Shown: positions 39,979-49,069 of the stretch, in pieces
Position numbering within the stretch: position 1 is the stretch's first letter
How the letters are laid out: each line of letters begins with the position of its first letter
Assembly: GCA_015075305.1 (NCBI GenBank)
Contig: JABTUS010000010.1
Coordinates: forward strand, 1-64,000
Source: Opitutaceae bacterium
GTDB lineage: Bacteria; Verrucomicrobiota; Verrucomicrobiia; Opitutales; Opitutaceae
Reading direction: 5' to 3'
Length of the DNA: 64,000 nt
The notes under the pieces: model-generated
What the model was told of the DNA's origin: nothing
The model's database searches: none
Seen by the model: the letters and a program-made list of their open reading frames with translations, nothing else
Translations under genes and position numbers: made by a program

Positions 39979-39981
39979 TTG

Positions 39982-40542
39982 ATGGCGGTGGAATTCACAA
40001 CCATCGGACACTCCAGCCGCAGCCTCGATGAGTTCATCGGCATGCTACGCGCCGCGGACGTCACTCTCTTGGTCGATGTCCGCTCCTTTCCCCGATCCCG
40101 GGCGAATCCCGCATTCAACATTGACTGTCTGCCGGCGGAGCTTGAGCGAGCGGGAATCGGCTATCGTCACTTTTCCGCACTCGGTGGACGACGATCGAAG
40201 CAGCGCGCGGTCGATGAGGGAGTGAATGCGCTGTGGCGAATGCCGAGTTTCCACAACTACGCGGACTATGCGCTCGGGGAGGAGTTTGGCACTGCATTTG
40301 ACGAGCTTGTACGGCTTGGGCGCAGCCGCCGCATCGCCTTGATGTGTGCGGAGGCGGTCTGGTGGCGGTGTCATCGTCGCATCATCACGGACTATCTTCT
40401 GCTGAACGGCCATGCGGTGATACACCTGATGTCCCCTGGCCGATCCGAAGCCGCGACGCCGACGCCGGGGGCCCAGCGCACCCGGGAAGGGAAGGTCATC
40501 TATCCGGCAGGACCAATGAAGGCGGAATCGCTCAATGCGTGA
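39982..40542 (+). CDS. DUF488-family protein
   Basis: A 186-aa protein with the family features: FTTIGHSSRSLDEFIGMLRAA at the N-terminus, VDVRSFPRSRANPAFN near residue 32 and the CAEAVWWRCHRRIITDYLL signature near residue 121, whose Cys, Trp and His residues suggest a nucleic-acid or metal-linked role. Its function is not established. ATG 39982 is preferred over TTG 39979. Its stop (40540-40542) directly abuts the stop of the convergent acyltransferase gene (40543-40545), leaving no spacer. Confidence 0.88.
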   Translation: MAVEFTTIGHSSRSLDEFIGMLRAADVTLLVDVRSFPRSRANPAFNIDCLPAELERAGIGYRHFSALGGRRSKQRAVDEGVNALWRMPSFHNYADYALGEEFGTAFDELVRLGRSRRIALMCAEAVWWRCHRRIITDYLLLNGHAVIHLMSPGRSEAATPTPGAQRTREGKVIYPAGPMKAESLNA

Positions 40543-41442
40543 TTAACCCACCGCCGGATTGAGCGGCAGGTAGTTGAACCACAGATACGGATGGCTGCGG
40601 ACCAGGGTTTCCAGCAGCGCGAGGACGGCTTGAAAATGCCTGTGGGCCGCCTCGAGGTTCTGTTCGCGTGTGAGTGCCGCGCTGGCGCGAAACACCGGGG
40701 ATGAAAACACCCGGATGCTTTCGGGATCCTTCGTGGGAATCGCCAGACAGAAGACCACCGGGCGGTCGAAAAGCAGCGCCAGATGGTAGATCGTGAAGGG
40801 AAAAAGGCGGCGCGCGCCCAGAAAATCAAAGGCCTCCGTGCGCGCGCTGTGGTCGATGCGGTCGCATTTCAATGCCACGGAGCGGCCCGCCTCGATCGCG
40901 CCCTTGAGCGCGAACAGCAGCTCGCGCGGATCGTTGACCCAGAGGTAGGCCACCTTGTCGCCAAAGCGCTCACCGAGGAGTCGCGTGTCCTTCGAATTCT
41001 CCACCTGCAGACGGAGAATCGACATGCGCTGATCGCGGTCGCTGAGCAGATAACCGAGCAGATCCGAACTGCCGAAATGGAATGTGCCGAACAGGGCCGG
41101 CCGTCCGGAGTCCACGAGGGCGTTGAACTCATCCGCATGAGCGGGCTCGAGCACGCAGCGCATGCGTGATCCGGCCCCGGTGCGGAGCTTCACCATCAGG
41201 AAATCCATGAACGCCGCGAAATGCCGGTGCTCCTCGATGAGCCGCGGGCGGCGACGAAGGACAACCGACAGGTATTCCTGCGAGGCCTGGCGCTGCCGCG
41301 GCATGCGCGCGAGCGCGATCCAGGTTCCCGTTGTCATCACCAGCCGGAAAAGCCAGCGCGGCCACCAGCGATCGGCCCAAAGGAGAAAGCCATAGCCCCA
41401 GCCGGGACCCGGATTTCGGGGTTTGGCGGACGGTGCAGTCAT
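40543..41442 (-). CDS. LpxL/HtrB-like lysophospholipid acyltransferase
   Basis: A 299-aa membrane-associated acyltransferase. The HX4D catalytic motif is HFGSSD (H122, D127). A hydrophobic N-terminal region (WGYGFLLWADRWWPRWLFRLVM) could anchor it to the inner membrane. LKCDRIDHSARTEAFDFLGARRLFPFTIYHLALLFDRPVVF and the C-terminal RSHPYLWFNYLPLNP match the LpxL/aryl-polyene acyltransferase group. Together with the adjacent ACPs it would transfer an ACP-bound acyl chain onto a lipid. It is last in a five-gene minus-strand run, 17 bp after the ACP gene. Confidence 0.85.
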   Translation of the reverse strand: MTAPSAKPRNPGPGWGYGFLLWADRWWPRWLFRLVMTTGTWIALARMPRQRQASQEYLSVVLRRRPRLIEEHRHFAAFMDFLMVKLRTGAGSRMRCVLEPAHADEFNALVDSGRPALFGTFHFGSSDLLGYLLSDRDQRMSILRLQVENSKDTRLLGERFGDKVAYLWVNDPRELLFALKGAIEAGRSVALKCDRIDHSARTEAFDFLGARRLFPFTIYHLALLFDRPVVFCLAIPTKDPESIRVFSSPVFRASAALTREQNLEAAHRHFQAVLALLETLVRSHPYLWFNYLPLNPAVG

Positions 41443-41459
41443 CCGCGGACAATCATCAC

Positions 41460-41729
41460 CTACGCCTTGCCGGCGGAGTGGGAGTGAATAAAGGCGGCGA
41501 TCGTTCGCACGTTTGCTAGCGCGTTGCGCGACTCCTCGCTGTTGCCGATCTTCACTCCGAATTCCTTTTCAAGCGCGAGGACAAGCTCCAGCGCGTCGAT
41601 CGAGTCGAGTCCGAAGCGCGGTGAACCAATCAGCGGCTCGTCGTCGGGAATGTCCTCGGGCCTGACGTCCTCCAGCTTCAGCGTGGTGACAATCAGGGTC
41701 TTGAGTCGGAGCAGGAGCGGGTCTGACAT
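41460..41729 (-). CDS. Acyl carrier protein
   Basis: An 89-aa ACP with the 4'-phosphopantetheine serine S43 in GLDSIDALELVLALEKEFGV. The acidic N-terminal helix and the IGNSEESRNALANVRTIAAFI helix 3-4 region fit. It carries more residues between helices 1 and 2 (PEDIPDDEPLIGSPRFG) than housekeeping AcpP, typical of secondary-metabolism or lipid-cluster ACPs. It lies 54 bp downstream of the ketosynthase gene. Confidence 0.9.
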   Translation of the reverse strand: MSDPLLLRLKTLIVTTLKLEDVRPEDIPDDEPLIGSPRFGLDSIDALELVLALEKEFGVKIGNSEESRNALANVRTIAAFIHSHSAGKA

Positions 41730-41783
41730 GATCGGGAACTCAGTGGTTCAGATAAATCCTCGGCTGGCAAACACACGCGCAAC

Positions 41784-43049
41784 TCAACGTGCCTTGCGCA
41801 GCAGATGGCAGACATTGCTTCCGCCGAAACCGCTGCTGTTGTTCAGGACCAGGGAGGGCGCTTCGTCGAGAGACTGCCGCGGCAGGTCCAGACCCTCGCA
41901 CACGGGGTCAATGTTTTCCAGGTGCGCGCAGCCGGGTATGAATCCCTCGTCGAGGGCAAGCACGCAGAACGCGGCCTCCATCGCGCCGGCGAGGGAGAGC
42001 CCGTGACCGGTCAATGCCTTGGTGCTGGAGATGCGAGGTCGCGCGCCGCCTTGGGTGAAAACGGCCTGGAGCGCCAGCGCCTCCGAGCGGTCGCCGGCGG
42101 GCGTGGAGGTTGCATGGGCGTTGACGTAGTTGATGTCTGCGACGCCGACTCCACCGTCGGCCAGTGTCCTGCGCATGGCTTCGCGCAGACCGGCACCCTC
42201 GGGATGAGAGGCGGCGACACTGTGACCGTCACCGGCCTGACCCCAGCCTGCGAGCTCCGCCTGGATGCGGGCCCCGCGGCTGCGCGCGAGGTCGGCGTCC
42301 TCAACGACGAGGGCAACCGCACCCCCGGTGCCGACAAAACCATCGCGCCGCTGGTCGAAGGGGCGCGATGCCTTTCCGGGATCGGGATTGGTCGAGAGCG
42401 CGCGCAGGCTTGCGAAGGAAAGGATGCTCTCATCCGTCATGTCTTCCGCGCCCACCACGAGCATGCGCCGCTGACGGCCGAGCCGGATCTCGTCCATGGC
42501 ATAGCCGAGCGCATGGCTTGAGGAGGCGCATGCGGAAACAAAACCGCAGACCGCGCCGGAGATCTTGTGGAAGGCGGCGATGTTGAAGTTCAGCGTACCG
42601 GCGATGGATGAAATGATCCCCATGGGATTTCCCCGCTGGCCGCGCGTGGCATGCATGTCCTGCACAAAATGAGAGAGCAGGTATGGCGAGCCCGCGGAGG
42701 CGCAGAACAACCCGGTGTCGCCGCCCGCGAGATCCCCGGGCATGAGGCCCGCCTCAAGCAGCGCCTGCTGCACCGCGCACATGGCATAGACTCCGTGAGG
42801 GGGCAGACCGCGAAGCAGTTCGCGATCGACGGCGAAGCGGGACGGCCAGCTCCAGTCGCGCCAGCTCGGGGACGGGAACGAAAATCCCTTCAACGTGCCC
42901 GCGACTTTCACGGGCAGATCAGGATTGTTGAGAAACTGGTGCGGTTCAAAGCCGTGGCGCAGCTCGCGCAGGCTTTGAATCACTGAACCGCGATCGTTGC
43001 CGATGCTCGTGATGAATCCGAGACCCGTGACTACGGGGAGGCGTGCCAT
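41784..43049 (-). CDS. Beta-ketoacyl-ACP synthase (FabF/aryl-polyene type)
   Basis: A 421-aa condensing enzyme. The thiolase-fold catalytic triad is C174 (SACASSSHA), H312 (NAHATSTPAGD) and H349 with K344 (TKALTGHG). The ending NNSSGFGGSNVCHLL is typical of KAS II proteins. It extends an ACP-bound chain with malonyl-ACP. No ketoreductase, dehydratase or chain-length factor is found nearby, so other steps must be supplied elsewhere or the product remains a simple chain. It is between two ACP genes, a layout found in aryl polyene and related lipid clusters. Confidence 0.92.
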   Translation of the reverse strand: MARLPVVTGLGFITSIGNDRGSVIQSLRELRHGFEPHQFLNNPDLPVKVAGTLKGFSFPSPSWRDWSWPSRFAVDRELLRGLPPHGVYAMCAVQQALLEAGLMPGDLAGGDTGLFCASAGSPYLLSHFVQDMHATRGQRGNPMGIISSIAGTLNFNIAAFHKISGAVCGFVSACASSSHALGYAMDEIRLGRQRRMLVVGAEDMTDESILSFASLRALSTNPDPGKASRPFDQRRDGFVGTGGAVALVVEDADLARSRGARIQAELAGWGQAGDGHSVAASHPEGAGLREAMRRTLADGGVGVADINYVNAHATSTPAGDRSEALALQAVFTQGGARPRISSTKALTGHGLSLAGAMEAAFCVLALDEGFIPGCAHLENIDPVCEGLDLPRQSLDEAPSLVLNNSSGFGGSNVCHLLRKAR

Positions 43050-43082
43050 GCCGTTGAGAGGGAAAAGCCCGGAGGATGCCGC

Positions 43083-43472
43083 TCAGCCGGCAGGCGCCGG
43101 GGATACCTTCCGGCGGATGAAGCTCCGCAGATCGTCGAGGGTGCGCACCTGCAGAAGCTCCTCATTCGAAATTGTGATGTTGAAGAGTTCCTCTGAGAAG
43201 AAGACCACTTCCGTGATGGCCAGCGAGTCGAATCCCAGATCCTCGATCAGACGGGTGGAGCCGGGGAATCCCGAGAGGGGCGCCTCGGTCTTTTTCGGAA
43301 TGTAATCATCCAATATGGCGAGTATCACGGGATCGAGAACCTCGGGATCGCGGGAGGTTTCGAACGCACTGAACGCATCCTGAACCTCCTGCGAGAAATG
43401 GCGGATCTTGTCTCGGGGCGTGCCTGATCGGGAAGGCGGCGGGTCGTTCGATGGCGGGGTGGAAGGTTCCAT
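43083..43472 (-). CDS. Acyl carrier protein with N-terminal extension
   Basis: A 129-aa protein whose C-terminal part (about residues 45-125) is an ACP with the phosphopantetheine serine S83 in DLGFDSLAITEVVFFSEELFNI. The first ~45 residues are Pro/Ser-rich (MEPSTPPSNDPPPSRSG) then helical (HFSQEVQDAFSAFETSRD), an unusual addition. The long loop YIPKKTEAPLSGFPGST before the active serine resembles the other ACP of the cluster. It lies 33 bp upstream of the ketosynthase gene. Confidence 0.88.
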   Translation of the reverse strand: MEPSTPPSNDPPPSRSGTPRDKIRHFSQEVQDAFSAFETSRDPEVLDPVILAILDDYIPKKTEAPLSGFPGSTRLIEDLGFDSLAITEVVFFSEELFNITISNEELLQVRTLDDLRSFIRRKVSPAPAG

Positions 43473-43535
43473 TGTCGTTGGTGAATGAGGCGGACGAATC
43501 AGCGGGCGGGTGGCGGCGCTGAAGGCAGGTCGTCC

Positions 43536-44273
43536 TCAGGTGTCGGATGATTTGGTTGCTGTGTATTCGCTGAAAAGTCCCAGTTGCGTGTGGCGATTCA
43601 CCTCCGTCAATCCCACCGATGCAAGAGCGGAAAGAACCGTCTCCGGCACCACGCAGGCGTCCATCGTCTCCCAATAGTAACGCATCATCTCCCGAGCGTC
43701 GGCGCTGCGGGTGAACAACTGTGTGAGGGCCGGATAGATGCGCCCAAAATAGGTTTTGAAAGCAAAACCGGAAATTCTGCCAGGCGGCTTTGTCACCTCA
43801 AGAATGAGCAGGCGCCCGCCCGGTTTCAGGACACGCCGGTATTCCCGAAATGTCGTTTCGAGATCGGTGACGTGCCGCAAGGCATAACCCATTGTCAGAA
43901 AATCGAAGCTGTTGTCATCGAAAGGCAGCGCCTCCGCGCGTCCAACGACGAAGGTTGCATCCAGTTTCCTGCGGGCAACCGAGAGCATGCCCTCGCTGGG
44001 ATCGAGGCACGTGATGTCTTTCGCGGTTCCCAGGATGCGCGATGCGGCAAGGGCGACCAAACCCGTCCCGCAGGCCACATCGAGCACGCGGGCACCGGAT
44101 TTCAGGCCATGGCGCTGCTGCACCCATTTGCGGTAAATGCCCCCCGTGCAAAAGAATCCCCAGTCGACGATGCCGTCGTAGTGGCGTGCTCCTTTGTCGA
44201 AGAGACGGTTCACGTAATCGGGCTTGTCCGCCAGATTGTCGTATCGGGCTTTTAAGGGCGGATGCGGACGCAC
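43536..44273 (-). CDS. UbiE/MenG-like class I SAM methyltransferase
   Basis: A 245-aa methyltransferase with the nucleotide loop VLDVACGTGLVALAAS near residue 63, DITCLDPSEGMLSVAR (motif II), GRAEALPFDDNSFDFLTMGYALRHV (post-II) and LKPGGRLLILEVTKPPG near residue 150. The pattern is close to UbiE/COQ5, but its position at the head of an ACP-ketosynthase-ACP-acyltransferase run suggests methylation of a lipid or polyene intermediate. The frame stays open to 44501; GTG 44273 is chosen because family similarity begins soon after it, and the region upstream belongs to the divergent gene at 44397. Confidence 0.8.
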   Translation of the reverse strand: MRPHPPLKARYDNLADKPDYVNRLFDKGARHYDGIVDWGFFCTGGIYRKWVQQRHGLKSGARVLDVACGTGLVALAASRILGTAKDITCLDPSEGMLSVARRKLDATFVVGRAEALPFDDNSFDFLTMGYALRHVTDLETTFREYRRVLKPGGRLLILEVTKPPGRISGFAFKTYFGRIYPALTQLFTRSADAREMMRYYWETMDACVVPETVLSALASVGLTEVNRHTQLGLFSEYTATKSSDT

Positions 44274-44396: not shown

Positions 44397-44921
44397 ATGA
44401 AACGGTCGGGCACCCTCATGGCATTTGCGATCACGCTTGTGCCCCTTGCCATGGCGCAAACCGCGACCAAACGTTCTCCCTTCCTGCCACCCGAGTCCCA
44501 AGCCGCCGGGCCCGTGGTCGAAAGCTCGTCAGTTGAGTTTCGTGGCGTACTCGTCATGGGAGGACACCAACAGTTCAATTTTTTTGAACCATCAAAACGC
44601 CTGAGCACCTGGGTGCGGATCAATGAACCTGGCGCAGCCATCGCGGTGAAGAGCTACGATTCCCACGCAGACACGGTGGTCGTGGAGTTCGGCGGACAGT
44701 CGCTCACCCTGGCTTTGCAAAAGGTGAAAATATCAGCCGCTCCCGCCGCTCCGGCGGTGGCACCTACAACTGCAAACGTCCCTGTGCCGCAGCCTGCCGT
44801 CGTGCTCAATCCCACTCCGGCGGATGAAGCGAAGCGCCTCGACGCCATCGCCGCCGAGGTGCGGCGTCGCCGGCTGCTTCGCCAGCAGACGACAACCCAG
44901 CCGGGGGGAAGCCAGAATTAG
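44397..44921 (+). CDS. Exported hypothetical protein
   Basis: A 174-aa protein of unknown family. The N-terminus MKRSGTLMAFAITLVPLAMAQ is a signal peptide. The middle (SVEFRGVLVMGGHQQFNFFEPSKRLSTWVRINEPGA...VVEFGGQSLTLALQKVKI) is a small beta-rich unit. A Pro/Ala/Val-rich linker follows (about 115-145), then a charged helix (DEAKRLDAIAAEVRRRRLLRQQ). The layout (signal peptide, beta domain, Pro-rich region) resembles periplasmic adaptors of secretion systems, but no identification is made. It is divergent from the methyltransferase gene. Confidence 0.72.
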   Translation: MKRSGTLMAFAITLVPLAMAQTATKRSPFLPPESQAAGPVVESSSVEFRGVLVMGGHQQFNFFEPSKRLSTWVRINEPGAAIAVKSYDSHADTVVVEFGGQSLTLALQKVKISAAPAAPAVAPTTANVPVPQPAVVLNPTPADEAKRLDAIAAEVRRRRLLRQQTTTQPGGSQN

Positions 44922-45086: not shown

Positions 45087-47609
45087 ATGACAACTGAGCT
45101 CCCTCCCGCCATCCAGCACCGGATTCTCAAATGGCGTGGAGCCTGCGTGGCGGTCATCGTGCTGGTCGCGGTCAATTCCTGGGCAGCCGAAACGGTCGAC
45201 TACTCCCGTGACATTCGGCCGATCCTCTCGGAAAACTGCTTCCAGTGTCACGGTCAGGATCCCGCCAAACGCGAGGCCAAGCTGCGGCTCGATACGCTGG
45301 AAGGCCAGCGCAAGGACGACACGGTCGTCCCGGGCAAGCCGGACGACAGCGAGCTGATCTACCGGATTTTTTCCGACGAGGAGGACGTGCGGATGCCACC
45401 GCGGAAGTCGCATCGCTCCCTCACCGATGCGCAAAGGAGCCTGCTCCGCCGCTGGGTCGAGGAGGGCGCGCCGTTCTCGCCGCATTGGGCGTTCACGAGG
45501 ATCGAGCGACCCAAACTTCCCGTCGTGAAACAGAAGGGGTGGGCGGTCAATCCGATCGACCTGTTTGTCCTCGCGAAACTCGAACAGGAGCAGTTGAAGC
45601 CTTCAGCCGAGGCAAGCCGTGAGACGCTCATCCGGCGCGTCACGCTCGATCTCACCGGGCTGCCGCCAACGCTCGCCGAGATCGATGCTTTTCTCCGGGA
45701 TCGCAGGCCGGGCGCTTACGAGCGCGTCGTCGACCGTCTCCTGGCCTCCCCGCGCTACGGAGAGCGAATGGCGCTGCCCTGGCTGGATGCGGCGCGCTAT
45801 GCGGACTCCAACGGCTTCCAGCAGGACGGCGACACGTTTCAATGGATCTGGCGCGACTGGGTCGTGAACGCGATGAATGCGAACATGCCCTTCGATGAGT
45901 TCACGATCGAGCAACTCGCGGGCGACCTGCTTCCAAATCCGACGGTTGAGCAGCGCATTGCGACGGCATTCAACCGCAATCACCTGCTCAACGGCGAGGG
46001 CGGTGCGATTCCGGAGGAACAGCGAAATGTCACCCTCTTCGACCGGGTCGACACCACGTCGACAAACTGGCTCGGCCTCACGATGGCCTGCGCCCAGTGT
46101 CACGATCACAAGTTCGATCCAATTTCCCAGAAGGACTATTATGCGATGATGGCGGCCTTCAACCAGGTGCCGGAGACCGGCGTCGTTTCGGGCGGAGCCT
46201 ACAAGGTTCGTGTCGCCAATCCCATCCTTGATCTGATCACGCCGCAGCAGCTCGCGCGCATCGACGAACTGGAGAAGTACCTCGGCTCCCCGCTCGTTGA
46301 GGAAAAGGTCAAGGCGTGGATGACGGAATGGGAAAAACAGGTGGTCGCGGATCCAAACTATGACAATGTCGTCATCAAGAAAATCGTTGAGCGCCCGTCG
46401 GCGGAGCGAACCGCAACGCAGACCGCAATGGCGCGACGCGCCTTCATTCAGACGCGGCTCAAGGAGATCGATGCGCCGCTTGCCTCGCAGTTTGATGAAT
46501 TGGAGCTGCTGAAGAACGACGAGCACCCGCGCCTGATGGTCATGGAGGACGGTCCGCATCGCGACACGTTCATCCTTGACCGGGGAAACTACGAGGCACC
46601 CCGCGCGAAGGTGGAGTTTGCCACGCCTGAGTTTCTTCCACCGCTTTCCGCTGGTGCTCCCCACAACCGTCTCGGCCTGGCCCGCTGGCTCGTCAGTCCG
46701 GAACAGCCGCTGACCGCACGCGTCATCGTCAACCGATACTGGCAGACCTTCTTCGGTCTCGGCCTGATCAAGACCAGCGAGGACTTCGGGGTCCAGGGCG
46801 AGCCGCCCGTGCACCGCGCCCTGCTGGACTGGCTCGCCGCGGAATTCCGCGAGAGCGGATGGAACGTCAAGGCGCTGCACCGGCTGATTGTGACGAGCGC
46901 GACGTATCGGCAGAGTTCGAAATCGAACAGCATCCTGAACGAGCATGATCCACAGAACAGGCTGTTCGCCCGCGGCCCCCGTTTTCGCCTGCCCGCCATG
47001 CTGATCCGGGATCAGGCACTCGCCGTCAGCGGGCTGCTCGTGAACAAGCTTGGCGGCAAGCCGGTGTACCCGTACCAGCCGGCGGACATCTGGGGTTCGC
47101 TCGCGATCACGAAGGAACGCGACTTCACCTATCCGCAGTCCCACGGCGCCGACCTGTATCGTCGCAGCCTGTACACTTTCTGGAGGCGGACCGTTGCGCC
47201 GGCGAACATCTTCAACGCGTCGTCGCGCAACACCTGTACGGTGCGAACGACGCTCACCAGCACGCCCCTGCATGCGCTGACCACACTCAACGATCCGACG
47301 TTCGTCGAGGCCGCGCGCGTGCTCGCAGCTCACGTCATCAAGGATGGCGGGCGACGTTCAACCAGCCGAATACGCATGGCCTTCCGCCTGGTGCTCGCGC
47401 GTCAGCCGGATGGCGAGGAGTTGAAACTTCTGAAGACCAGCCTCGGCAGGCAACTGAAACGCTTTCGCGCCGACGCTTCGTCGGCGCGCGAATTCCTGGC
47501 GATCGGCGATCATCCGGTCGACCCGTCCATCGACCCCGCCGAGCACGCGGCCTATGCCGCGCTCTGCCTGGCCATCCTCAACCTCGATGAAGCCCTGACC
47601 AAGTCATGA
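45087..47609 (+). CDS. Secreted DUF1549/DUF1553 protein with PSCyt1 cytochrome c domain
   Basis: An 840-aa exported protein of the Planctomycetes/Verrucomicrobia type. An N-terminal hydrophobic segment (CVAVIVLVAVNSWA) is followed by a PSCyt1 heme domain with C51-x-x-C54-H55 (ENCFQCHG). DUF1549 comprises about residues 155-370 (NPIDLFVLAKLEQEQLKPS, DLTGLPPTLAEIDAFL, WLDAARYADSNGF) and includes a second CxxCH at C335-C338-H339 (ACAQCHDHKFDP). DUF1553 lies in the C-terminal half (LGLARWLVSPEQPLTARVIVNRYWQTFFGLG). The family function is unproven; a redox role with its DUF1501 partner is likely. The stop overlaps the next ATG (ATGA). Confidence 0.9.
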   Translation: MTTELPPAIQHRILKWRGACVAVIVLVAVNSWAAETVDYSRDIRPILSENCFQCHGQDPAKREAKLRLDTLEGQRKDDTVVPGKPDDSELIYRIFSDEEDVRMPPRKSHRSLTDAQRSLLRRWVEEGAPFSPHWAFTRIERPKLPVVKQKGWAVNPIDLFVLAKLEQEQLKPSAEASRETLIRRVTLDLTGLPPTLAEIDAFLRDRRPGAYERVVDRLLASPRYGERMALPWLDAARYADSNGFQQDGDTFQWIWRDWVVNAMNANMPFDEFTIEQLAGDLLPNPTVEQRIATAFNRNHLLNGEGGAIPEEQRNVTLFDRVDTTSTNWLGLTMACAQCHDHKFDPISQKDYYAMMAAFNQVPETGVVSGGAYKVRVANPILDLITPQQLARIDELEKYLGSPLVEEKVKAWMTEWEKQVVADPNYDNVVIKKIVERPSAERTATQTAMARRAFIQTRLKEIDAPLASQFDELELLKNDEHPRLMVMEDGPHRDTFILDRGNYEAPRAKVEFATPEFLPPLSAGAPHNRLGLARWLVSPEQPLTARVIVNRYWQTFFGLGLIKTSEDFGVQGEPPVHRALLDWLAAEFRESGWNVKALHRLIVTSATYRQSSKSNSILNEHDPQNRLFARGPRFRLPAMLIRDQALAVSGLLVNKLGGKPVYPYQPADIWGSLAITKERDFTYPQSHGADLYRRSLYTFWRRTVAPANIFNASSRNTCTVRTTLTSTPLHALTTLNDPTFVEAARVLAAHVIKDGGRRSTSRIRMAFRLVLARQPDGEELKLLKTSLGRQLKRFRADASSAREFLAIGDHPVDPSIDPAEHAAYAALCLAILNLDEALTKS

Positions 47610-49069
47610 ATCCGCTTTCCGAACATCACCTTAACCTCACGCGCCGCCAGTTTTTTGGTCGCACCGCGACCGGCATCGGCACGGCGGCGCTCGCCTCGCT
47701 GCTGACGCGCCCCTTGTTCTCGGGTGTCGTCAACGGTCCGGCGAAAGGCGCCGCGATCACCGGCCTTCCGCACTTCGCGCCGAAGGCGAAGCGTGTCATC
47801 CTGCTCTGGCAGGGAGGCGGTCCCTCGCAGGTGGACCTCTACGACCACAAGCCCCTGCTCGCCAAGCTTCGACTTCAGGAGTTGCCGGAGTCGGTTCGAA
47901 GCTCGGCCCGGCTGTCCACGATGACGTCGGGGCAGAAGAAGTTTCCCATTCTTCCCGCGATCAAGCCGTTCAAGCAGTATGGGAAATGCGGGCGCTGGCT
48001 GTCGGAGCTGCTTCCCCATATCGGCGAAATCTCGGATGAGCTCTGCTTCATCCACTCCATGCACACGGAGGCGGTCAACCACTCCCCCGGAGTCACCTTC
48101 TGCCTAACCGGCTCGCAGATTCCGGGGCGTCCCTCCATGGGAGCCTGGCTCACCTATGGACTCGGCTCGGAGGTGGAGGATCTCCCGGCCTTTGTCGTGC
48201 TGACCTCCGCCGACCGGCAGAAGACCTGCGGACAATTGTTCTACGAGCACTACTGGGGAAGCGGCTTCATTCCCTCGAAATATCAGGGCGTGCGTCTGCG
48301 CAGCGAGGGCGAACCGGTGCTCTATCTCAACGATGCCCCGGGGCTCGATCGCGCGCAGAAGCGCGCGCTGCTCGACGACATTGCCGCGCTGAATGCGCAT
48401 CAGTTCGAGCAGCAGGCGGACCCCGAGATTGAAACCCGCATTGCGCAGTACGAAATGGCTTTCAAGATGCAGGCGAGCGTTCCCGGCCTGCTCGACCTCA
48501 GCAAGGAGGCGCCGCAGGTGATCGAACGCTACGGGCCGGATGTGCATCGTGCGGGAAGCTATGCGCGCAACTGCCTGCTCGCGCGGCGGCTCGCGGAGCG
48601 CGGCGTGCGTTTCATCCAACTCATGCACAGCGGCTGGGACCAGCACAACAATCTGCCGACCCAGCTTGCGATCCAGTGCCAGGACACCGACCAGCCCGCG
48701 GCCGCCCTCATCAAGGATTTGAAGGAGCGCGGCCTGCTCGAGGACACGCTCGTGATCTGCGCCGCCGAGTTTGGTCGCACCGTGTTTGTGCAGGGCGATG
48801 TATCCAAGCCGGCCTATGGCCGCGATCACCTCGGCACCGCCTTCACCATCTGGATGGCGGGTGGGGGCGTGAAACCTGGCATCGCCTACGGCACGACCGA
48901 CGACTTCAGCTACAGCGTCGTCAACGATCCCGTTCACGTGCACGACTGGCAGGCAACCGTGCTCCACCTGCTCGGCATCGATCACGAAAGACTGACATAC
49001 CGCTTCCAGGGACGCCAGTTCCGTCTGACCGACGTGCATGGCAAGGTCGTGAAAGGCGTGCTGGCCTGA
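47606..49069 (+). CDS. Tat-exported DUF1501 protein
   Basis: A 487-aa protein. NLTRRQFFGRTATGIGTAALASLL is a twin-arginine signal peptide. The body is the DUF1501 fold, related to the alkaline phosphatase/sulfatase superfamily: KRVILLWQGGGPSQVDLYDHKP near residue 63, HSMHTEAVNHSPGV near 151, and AAEFGRTVFVQG and GRDHLGTAFTIWMAGGGVKPG near 390. Members are usually encoded next to DUF1549/DUF1553 proteins, as here (4-bp overlap). The natural substrate is unknown. Confidence 0.92.
   Translation: MNPLSEHHLNLTRRQFFGRTATGIGTAALASLLTRPLFSGVVNGPAKGAAITGLPHFAPKAKRVILLWQGGGPSQVDLYDHKPLLAKLRLQELPESVRSSARLSTMTSGQKKFPILPAIKPFKQYGKCGRWLSELLPHIGEISDELCFIHSMHTEAVNHSPGVTFCLTGSQIPGRPSMGAWLTYGLGSEVEDLPAFVVLTSADRQKTCGQLFYEHYWGSGFIPSKYQGVRLRSEGEPVLYLNDAPGLDRAQKRALLDDIAALNAHQFEQQADPEIETRIAQYEMAFKMQASVPGLLDLSKEAPQVIERYGPDVHRAGSYARNCLLARRLAERGVRFIQLMHSGWDQHNNLPTQLAIQCQDTDQPAAALIKDLKERGLLEDTLVICAAEFGRTVFVQGDVSKPAYGRDHLGTAFTIWMAGGGVKPGIAYGTTDDFSYSVVNDPVHVHDWQATVLHLLGIDHERLTYRFQGRQFRLTDVHGKVVKGVLA

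Follow-up and report, generated by a model that had tools for sequence, protein, structure and literature searches.

Five Genes of an Opitutaceae Bacterium as a Probable Island of a Dispersed Aryl-Polyene Lipid Pathway

Introduction

Do five closely spaced biosynthetic genes form a pathway of their own, or are they one part of a larger pathway whose other genes lie elsewhere? The question is raised by the first 64,000 nucleotides of contig JABTUS010000010.1 from an Opitutaceae bacterium (assembly GCA_015075305.1; hereafter the window), which carry, at positions 40543-44273 of the minus strand, five intact open reading frames (ORFs) for a methyltransferase (MT), an acyl carrier protein (ACP1), a ketosynthase (KS), a second acyl carrier protein (ACP2), and an LpxL-like acyltransferase (Table 1). 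The original prediction pointed to kinship with aryl polyene clusters and to the lack of ketoreductase (KR), dehydratase (DH), ligase, and export genes at this locus; either the rest would lie elsewhere, or a minimal cluster would make a simpler methylated acyl product. We find that the five genes are probably one island of an aryl-polyene lipid pathway, of the kind that makes yellow membrane pigments, dispersed over three places in the genome.

Results

Relatives Hold the Five Genes within One Cluster

The predicted spacing was confirmed, with gaps of 63, 33, 54, and 17 bp from the MT end to the LpxL end, and the Pfam scores of all five genes exceed gathering scores. Both ACPs, the first with its Pro/Ser-rich extension, and the HX4D acyltransferase were likewise recovered. 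The KS retains the expected C-H-H residues but is not of the FabF type assigned to it: it scores 306.1 bits with the NCBIfam fabF equivalog (cut-off 493.75), and among solved structures the nearest to it by sequence are FabB-type β-ketoacyl-ACP synthases I. It appears a better fit to ApeR, described as "FabB-like" (PMC8358021), than to FabF. The MT does match Ubie_methyltran, as the label UbiE-like implies, but stays below both NCBIfam UbiE/MenG cut-offs (at best 137.1 bits vs 216; 129.7 vs 158.35); its role may be ApeB/ArcM-like, in ring methylation. The five genes, their order, and their NupC-, DUF1501-, and ROK-type flanks are alike in three related assemblies (KS identity 89-90%). Because order and flanks recur in this way, and because the ratio of nonsynonymous to synonymous change (pN/pS) of the five genes is 0.08-0.22 between the window's genome (G000) and G281, G278, and G274, rough as such values are with synonymous sites near saturation, the set is not a chance arrangement.

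Relatives of the KS turned up in 269 of the 273 genomes searched across the order. Most matches listed have 50-60% identity, those of the window's own KS type mostly more than 60%. The gene order in relatives is MT-ACP1-KS-ACP2-ApeO-ApeC-LpxL-PlsC-GT2-LolA-exporter-AMP ligase-chorismatase (GT2, family 2 glycosyltransferase; AMP, adenosine monophosphate), so that the suspected kinship with aryl polyene clusters is borne out: related Opitutaceae have the same genes within one aryl-polyene cluster. MT is the first gene in one group ("MT-type"); many other clusters have one or two halogenase-like flavin adenine dinucleotide (FAD) enzymes at that position. Chorismatase occurs in many relative loci, mostly on the strand opposite to the cluster. 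Among 31 loci (L124-L154), genes for a 371-aa and a 223-aa protein (apeO-apeC) lie between ACP2 and LpxL in 17. LpxL follows ACP2 directly in three (L124-L126, from G281, G274, and G278), four are cut short, and five hold KS alone or ACP1-KS. As to the others, the contig of L131 ends inside apeO, and L142 is fragmented, with no LpxL match. The congener G275, whose listed genus is that of G000, has the whole pathway in one block, flanked by a gene of the 44397-44921 type at the MT end and, beyond chorismatase, by FadR- and GlcD-like genes, as at contig C2 of G000.

The 371-aa protein has an intact Cys-His-His site, and its best PDB matches by sequence are 7f28_B and 6qsp_A, the title of 6qsp being "Ketosynthase (ApeO) in Complex with its Chain Length Factor (ApeC)." By sequence, the 223-aa protein matches 7f28_A weakly (E 0.065) and falls below the Pfam cut-off for Ketoacyl-synt_2. 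The fold predicted for its L132 homolog (13 sequences; mean predicted local distance difference test score 83.4) has as top matches 6qsp_B, 7f28_C, and 7f28_A (E 1.7e-9 to 2.2e-8; template modeling score by query length 0.47-0.61), the match at rank 4 having an E value of 3e-6. Given the active site, the PDB matches, and the predicted fold, we thus read the first protein as ApeO-like and the second as an ApeC-like, half-size chain length factor. Another assignment, in which the 371-aa protein was the chain length factor and a dehydratase was seen in the 223-aa protein, was overturned by the active-site check, the PDB matches, and PMC8358021.

The Remaining Genes Form Two Further Islands in the Same Genome

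In G000, where the window (contig C10) is island 1, the suggestion that the rest lies elsewhere proved correct: ApeO-ApeC-LolA (island 2, contig C3) and PlsC-GT2-exporter-AMP ligase-chorismatase (island 3, contig C2) occupy two other places. G000 has an ApeO-ApeC pair, two ACPs with an ApeR-like KS and an MT, a chorismatase with an AMP ligase, and a LolA-like carrier, MMPL/RND exporter, acyltransferases, and glycosyltransferase. The FkbO/Hyg5 chorismatase exceeds its Pfam cut-off; with NCBIfam it has an E value of 7.8e-59 but 199.5 bits against a cut-off of 325. These parts do not form a single physical cluster. The contigs measure 234.5 kb (C10), 446.6 kb (C3), and 550.6 kb (C2), and islands 1, 2, and 3 lie 40.5, 147, and 153 kb from the nearest contig end, so any two islands are at least ~188 kb apart, provided that the assembly is correct. 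The observation that KR, DH, ligase, and export genes are lacking at the five-gene set holds for that locus; ligase and exporter are found elsewhere in the genome, whereas a dedicated KR and DH were not recognized. A minimal stand-alone cluster was rejected, and a simpler methylated acyl product from it is not supported, since the remaining pathway parts, AMP ligase and exporter among them, are present in the same genome.

Congeners repeat this arrangement. G278 has the three islands of G000, with no chorismatase match at the third. G281 has island 1 and an island 3 that includes chorismatase; the contig carrying sufS-apeO stops inside apeO, so that ApeC and LolA are out of view. In G273, ApeO-ApeC-LolA follows sufS, and ACP2-LpxL-PlsC-GT2-exporter-AMP ligase-chorismatase lies on another contig that starts just before ACP2, with LpxL and the exporter read in pieces. 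In G000, G278, and G281, apeO begins 33-34 bp after sufS, and in G273, too, it begins shortly after that gene; apeO was not found behind sufS in G275, G277, G279, or G280. We refer to the genomes with separated islands as the split group.

To judge spacing across the family, strong ApeO rows of 252 genomes were compared with exporter rows, setting aside some genomes with partial matches (among them G332, G339, G402, G431, G471, and G477) and those exporter rows that had no strong ApeO match beside them. On this count 80 genomes have both genes. In 63 of them the two share a contig and are less than 12 kb apart; the other 17 have them on different contigs, four of these in this genus and 13 outside it, where contig breaks may be responsible. 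Dispersal has perhaps arisen more than once in the family. Looser placement of the ACP1-KS pair was seen as well: in G172 (L051, L239) the pair is 75 kb from ApeO on the same contig, and in G232 (L253) and G013 (L043, L247) the ApeO cluster lacks the pair or lies at a distance from it.

All three islands look to be under purifying selection. Rough pN/pS values, as above, are 0.18-0.25 for island 2 (G000 vs G278 and, for ApeO only, vs G281) and 0.23-0.32 for island 3 (G000 vs G278 and G281). Among split genomes the range is 0.08-0.35, except for LolA against G273 (0.40).

Reductase and Dehydratase Candidates

Neither KR nor DH was recognized in intact relatives' clusters, as covered by Pfam on ten genes of L045 and by tblastn with the reductase and ACP-dehydratase of a locus on contig C7. 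Because the two are thus also unrecognized in the intact clusters examined, their lack at the window is not evidence for a minimal product. The C7 locus itself (G000:C7:291.1-296.8 kb; L037:8141-13826) has, in a row, an ACP-FabA-type dehydratase fusion, a second KS (57% identity to the window KS), and a short-chain dehydrogenase/reductase (SDR); two further genes in the row we take to be glycosyltransferases. A KS of this type and, in the matching place, a FabA gene are present in congeners both with and without close polyene matches, and the locus was not accepted as a fourth island since the latter, too, carry its KS and dehydratase. Another candidate SDR lies ~2.9 kb from lolA at C3 and is also present in G278 and G273. 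The C7 reductase and ACP-dehydratase or the C3 SDR may serve the polyene.

Island 2 Probably Differs in Ancestry from the Other Genes

Gene trees were built from 33-42 rows each, with three to five split genomes, at most 17 MT-type loci, and at most 21 others. Short or fragmented loci and those without ApeO were omitted (L129, L131, L140, L142, L143, L146-L150, L153), rows covering less than 60-70% of the query were removed, and L145 was taken out of the careful ApeO tree and of later trees and tests as a long branch; the trees lack KS for G273, and ApeC and LolA for G281. The split group sides with the MT-type clusters in the trees of KS, ACP2, LpxL, PlsC, GT2, exporter, and AMP ligase, weakly so for PlsC (support 93, or 72 under a mixture model). 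It falls outside the MT-type clade for ApeO (98 in the quick tree, 100/100 in the careful one), ApeC (99-100), and LolA (85-92, not starred). Joining the split group and G275 in one clade was rejected for ApeO (p = 0.0066), ApeC (2.3e-5), and LolA (0.0016). The trees of KS, GT2, and exporter recover such a clade (support 79-89), and LpxL (0.54), PlsC (0.68), ACP2 (0.66), and AMP ligase (0.38) do not reject it; all p values are uncorrected for test number, the groups were set after the first trees, and the careful tree served in the ApeO test only. Outside the genus, the closest ApeO proteins belong to genus code g4 (65-72%). MT-type ApeO proteins are at ~58-66%, and many other FAD-type ApeO no higher. 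The chorismatase tree mixes the groups (six changes in 20 rows) and is uninformative. Since ApeO, ApeC, and LolA reject the grouping with G275 and the seven other genes do not, island 2 has probably been exchanged for a divergent version, a conclusion of which we are less sure than of the dispersal.

Discussion

How might three separated islands work together? We infer a joint pathway in which an FkbO/Hyg5-family chorismatase would supply hydroxybenzoate and the AMP ligase would load it onto an ACP. For ArcB and ArcT of Azoarcus, the conversion by chorismatase and AMP ligase to activated hydroxybenzoate has been tested (PMC3949708). ApeO-ApeC of island 2 and the ApeR-like KS of the window would extend the chain with malonyl units on ACP1 and ACP2; with Acinetobacter proteins in vitro, ApeO-ApeC give full length and ApeR raises throughput, the enzymes acting together (PMC8358021). 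KR and DH would be provided by fatty acid synthesis or by unlinked candidate genes. The MT would methylate the ring, two acyltransferases and GT2 would attach the chain to a glycolipid, and the MMPL/RND exporter and LolA-like carrier would bring it to the outer membrane; the E. coli model is our source for the MT, acyltransferase, LolA, and exporter roles (PMC8253772).

The dispersal may have proceeded in two steps. An apeO-apeC-lolA set of divergent ancestry would have been placed behind sufS and the native copies lost, a state already present in G273. Islands 1 and 3 would have been parted afterward, by a break between lpxL and plsC. One such break would leave islands 1 and 3 each with its own outer neighbor, and the gene at 44397..44921, found beside the MT in G275 and G276 as well, indicates that the MT end did retain its neighbor. 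Three parallel copies of the whole cluster with complementary loss were considered because lolA and apeO-apeC are not adjacent in the intact order; this idea was dropped in view of the other ancestry of island 2 in the trees and of G273 as an intermediate. ApeO, ApeC, and LolA could even have been exchanged as one module, with chain-length enzymes traveling together with a periplasmic carrier that has to accommodate the completed chain: a foreign length-plus-carrier set would have changed the chain length, the old starter, methylation, lipid-attachment, and export genes would have been retained, and the cluster would then have fallen apart with its function kept. We regard this as possible but somewhat doubtful.

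The closest parallel is arcuflavin, the xanthomonadin-like pigment of Azoarcus sp. BH72, whose genes share with G000 the chorismatase, AMP ligase, KS beside a KS-N-terminal-domain protein, ACP, MT, glycosyltransferase, acyltransferases, LolA, exporter, and polysaccharide deacetylase (arcN) (PMC3949708). Arcuflavin depends on two unlinked loci, both essential (PMC3949708), not on three as in G000; this precedent means that one physical cluster is not essential to a pathway of this kind. The arcuflavin loci carry their own dehydratases and reductase, while none was recognized in the G000 islands, and a differently descended set of KS, chain length factor, and LolA is not reported for arcuflavin in the literature found. 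The ape clusters of E. coli CFT073, Xenorhabdus, and Acinetobacter have counterparts in G000 for ApeB (MT), ApeO-ApeC, ApeR, and the two ACPs (PMC8253772, Table 1; PMC8358021), and for ApeD, ApeH, ApeL, and ApeM (PMC8253772, PMC8358021). Unlike G000, E. coli has one 18-gene block with its own KR (ApeQ), DHs (ApeI, ApeP), and thioesterase. ApeJ is annotated as a single glycosyltransferase/acyltransferase, where G000 has separate GT2 and LpxL-like genes, plus the chorismatase. Intact Opitutaceae clusters (e.g., G275, G154, L132, L137) have the genes of G000 in fixed order, but in one block, and ApeO, ApeC, and LolA of the MT-type ones form groups separate from their counterparts in the split genomes. 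For Congregicoccus parvus ASA1, placed by its authors in Alterococcaceae, an antiSMASH arylpolyene region and slightly yellow colonies are described (PMC12193912); that region is probably another such intact cluster. Among the literature matches listed (open-licence papers), none described an aryl-polyene pathway as dispersed in Verrucomicrobiota.

Several observations weigh against a dispersed pathway. No chorismatase match was found at island 3 of G278. G274 has island 1 without close matches to ApeO, exporter, or ligase, and in G276 (97% complete) MT-ACP1-KS stands where a contig ends (L080, C50); LpxL and exporter gave no match there, and ApeO and ligase no close one, though the GlcD gene of G276 is present. 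A dedicated KR, DH, or thioesterase was not recognized in the three islands (no genome-wide reductase search was made), and three FabA-family genes occur in each of eight genomes, including three congeners without close ApeO, exporter, or ligase matches. G274 and G276 would fit an island 1 that has been cut loose, its KS, two ACPs, MT, and LpxL independently providing a membrane lipid with a short, methylated acyl chain. We consider this quite improbable, given that the genes of all three islands co-occur in G000, G281, and G278 with low pN/pS. G274 moreover lacks close orthologs of the flanking genes sufS and GlcD, the latter present in the five other congeners searched, so that its assembly probably misses both places and G274 counts neither way; in G276 the remaining genes are either lost or unassembled. 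The scattering itself, together with the unrecognized KR and DH, might suggest decaying remnants of a lost pigment pathway. Such decay is most improbable: the low pN/pS speaks against it, the island ORFs of G000 are open, the active-site residues of KS and ApeO are kept, and L045, the one intact cluster annotated gene by gene with Pfam, likewise shows no reductase or dehydratase.

Granting a dispersed pathway, its descent could still be wholly vertical, the split group having branched before the other MT-type clusters, whose ApeO, ApeC, and LolA then changed fast. Part of the tree evidence tells against an exchange of island 2 in just this way: in the careful ApeO tree the best topology has the split group as sister to MT-type (83/83), a grouping of the split group with MT-type as a whole was not rejected for ApeC (0.30), and an MT-type clade excluding the split group was not rejected for five of the seven other genes (KS 0.059, LpxL 0.23, AMP ligase 0.26, exporter 0.40, ACP2 0.65). 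That basal position was rejected by PlsC (0.0096) and GT2 (0.028). The congener G275 has MT-type ApeO, ApeC, and LolA, and it is for these three that the split group's union with G275 fails, and for none of the seven others; vertical descent throughout therefore seems unlikely, if less so than the two alternatives above.

For locus-by-locus cluster mining, a dispersed pathway of this kind would appear as three unremarkable fragments, and a whole pigment pathway could be missed. The genus offers a stepwise series, from the intact cluster of G275 through G273 with island 2 apart to the three islands of G000, G278, and G281 (as far as contigs reach), in which a biosynthetic cluster is disassembled with its genes still under selection, and which suggests what parts exchange together. 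The relatives point to chorismatase-starter aryl-polyene pathways in many members of the family.

Neighboring Genes and Minor Features

Table 1. Features of the five-gene set, of its surroundings, and of islands 2 and 3
Feature	Location	Strand	Details
LpxL-like acyltransferase	40543..41442	-	Lip_A_acyltrans 6.8e-06, 25.9 bits; one HX4D (HFGSSD, residue 122); final gene of island 1
ACP2-LpxL gap, 17 bp	41443..41459	.	position of apeO-apeC in 17 relative loci
ACP2	41460..41729	-	DSI serine motif, residues 42-44; PP-binding 7.8e-08, 32.9 bits
KS, homodimer-type, ApeR-like (FabB-like)	41784..43049	-	ketoacyl-synt N/C 96.1/103.0 bits; C174-H312-H349 kept
ACP1	43083..43472	-	Pro/Ser-rich N-terminal extension; DSL motif, residues 82-84 (phosphopantetheine serine); PP-binding 5.1e-05, 23.9 bits
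UbiE-like S-adenosylmethionine methyltransferase (MT)	43536..44273	-	GTG start, second in-frame GTG at 44213; Ubie_methyltran 8.1e-38, 130.5 bits
Divergent gene without Pfam match	44397..44921	+	MT has this neighbor also in two congeners, G275 (intact cluster) and G276
Island 2: ApeO-ApeC-LolA	G000 C3:296.7-299.2 kb		apeO starts 34 bp behind sufS; LolA_3 family
PAP2 and polysaccharide-deacetylase genes	C2:389.7-391.3 kb		directly upstream of island 3
Island 3: PlsC, GT2, exporter, AMP ligase, chorismatase	G000 C2:391.4-397.7 kb		families AMP-binding, MMPL, PlsC-type, GT2, FkbO/Hyg5

A promoter scan at the window genes stayed at chance level (one found vs 0.8 expected). Past the LpxL end of the set, a DUF488 gene (39979-40542, plus strand) converges on the LpxL gene, and the stop codons of the two abut with zero gap. 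Two long co-directional genes at 45147-49069 adjoin the five-gene set; we take them to be a DUF1549/DUF1553 plus DUF1501 pair, a combination frequent in Verrucomicrobiota and Planctomycetes. Relatives of the PAP2 and polysaccharide-deacetylase genes upstream of island 3 stand near several other clusters. The GlcD-like gene adjoining island 3 has one in-frame TGA within the alignment in each of the five congeners that gave a close match (L273-L276), and ORFs are nonetheless called there (G275). Next to lolA, G000 has two small genes (L101:16138-16615), presumably a MazEF-type toxin-antitoxin pair, which are not called at that place in G278.

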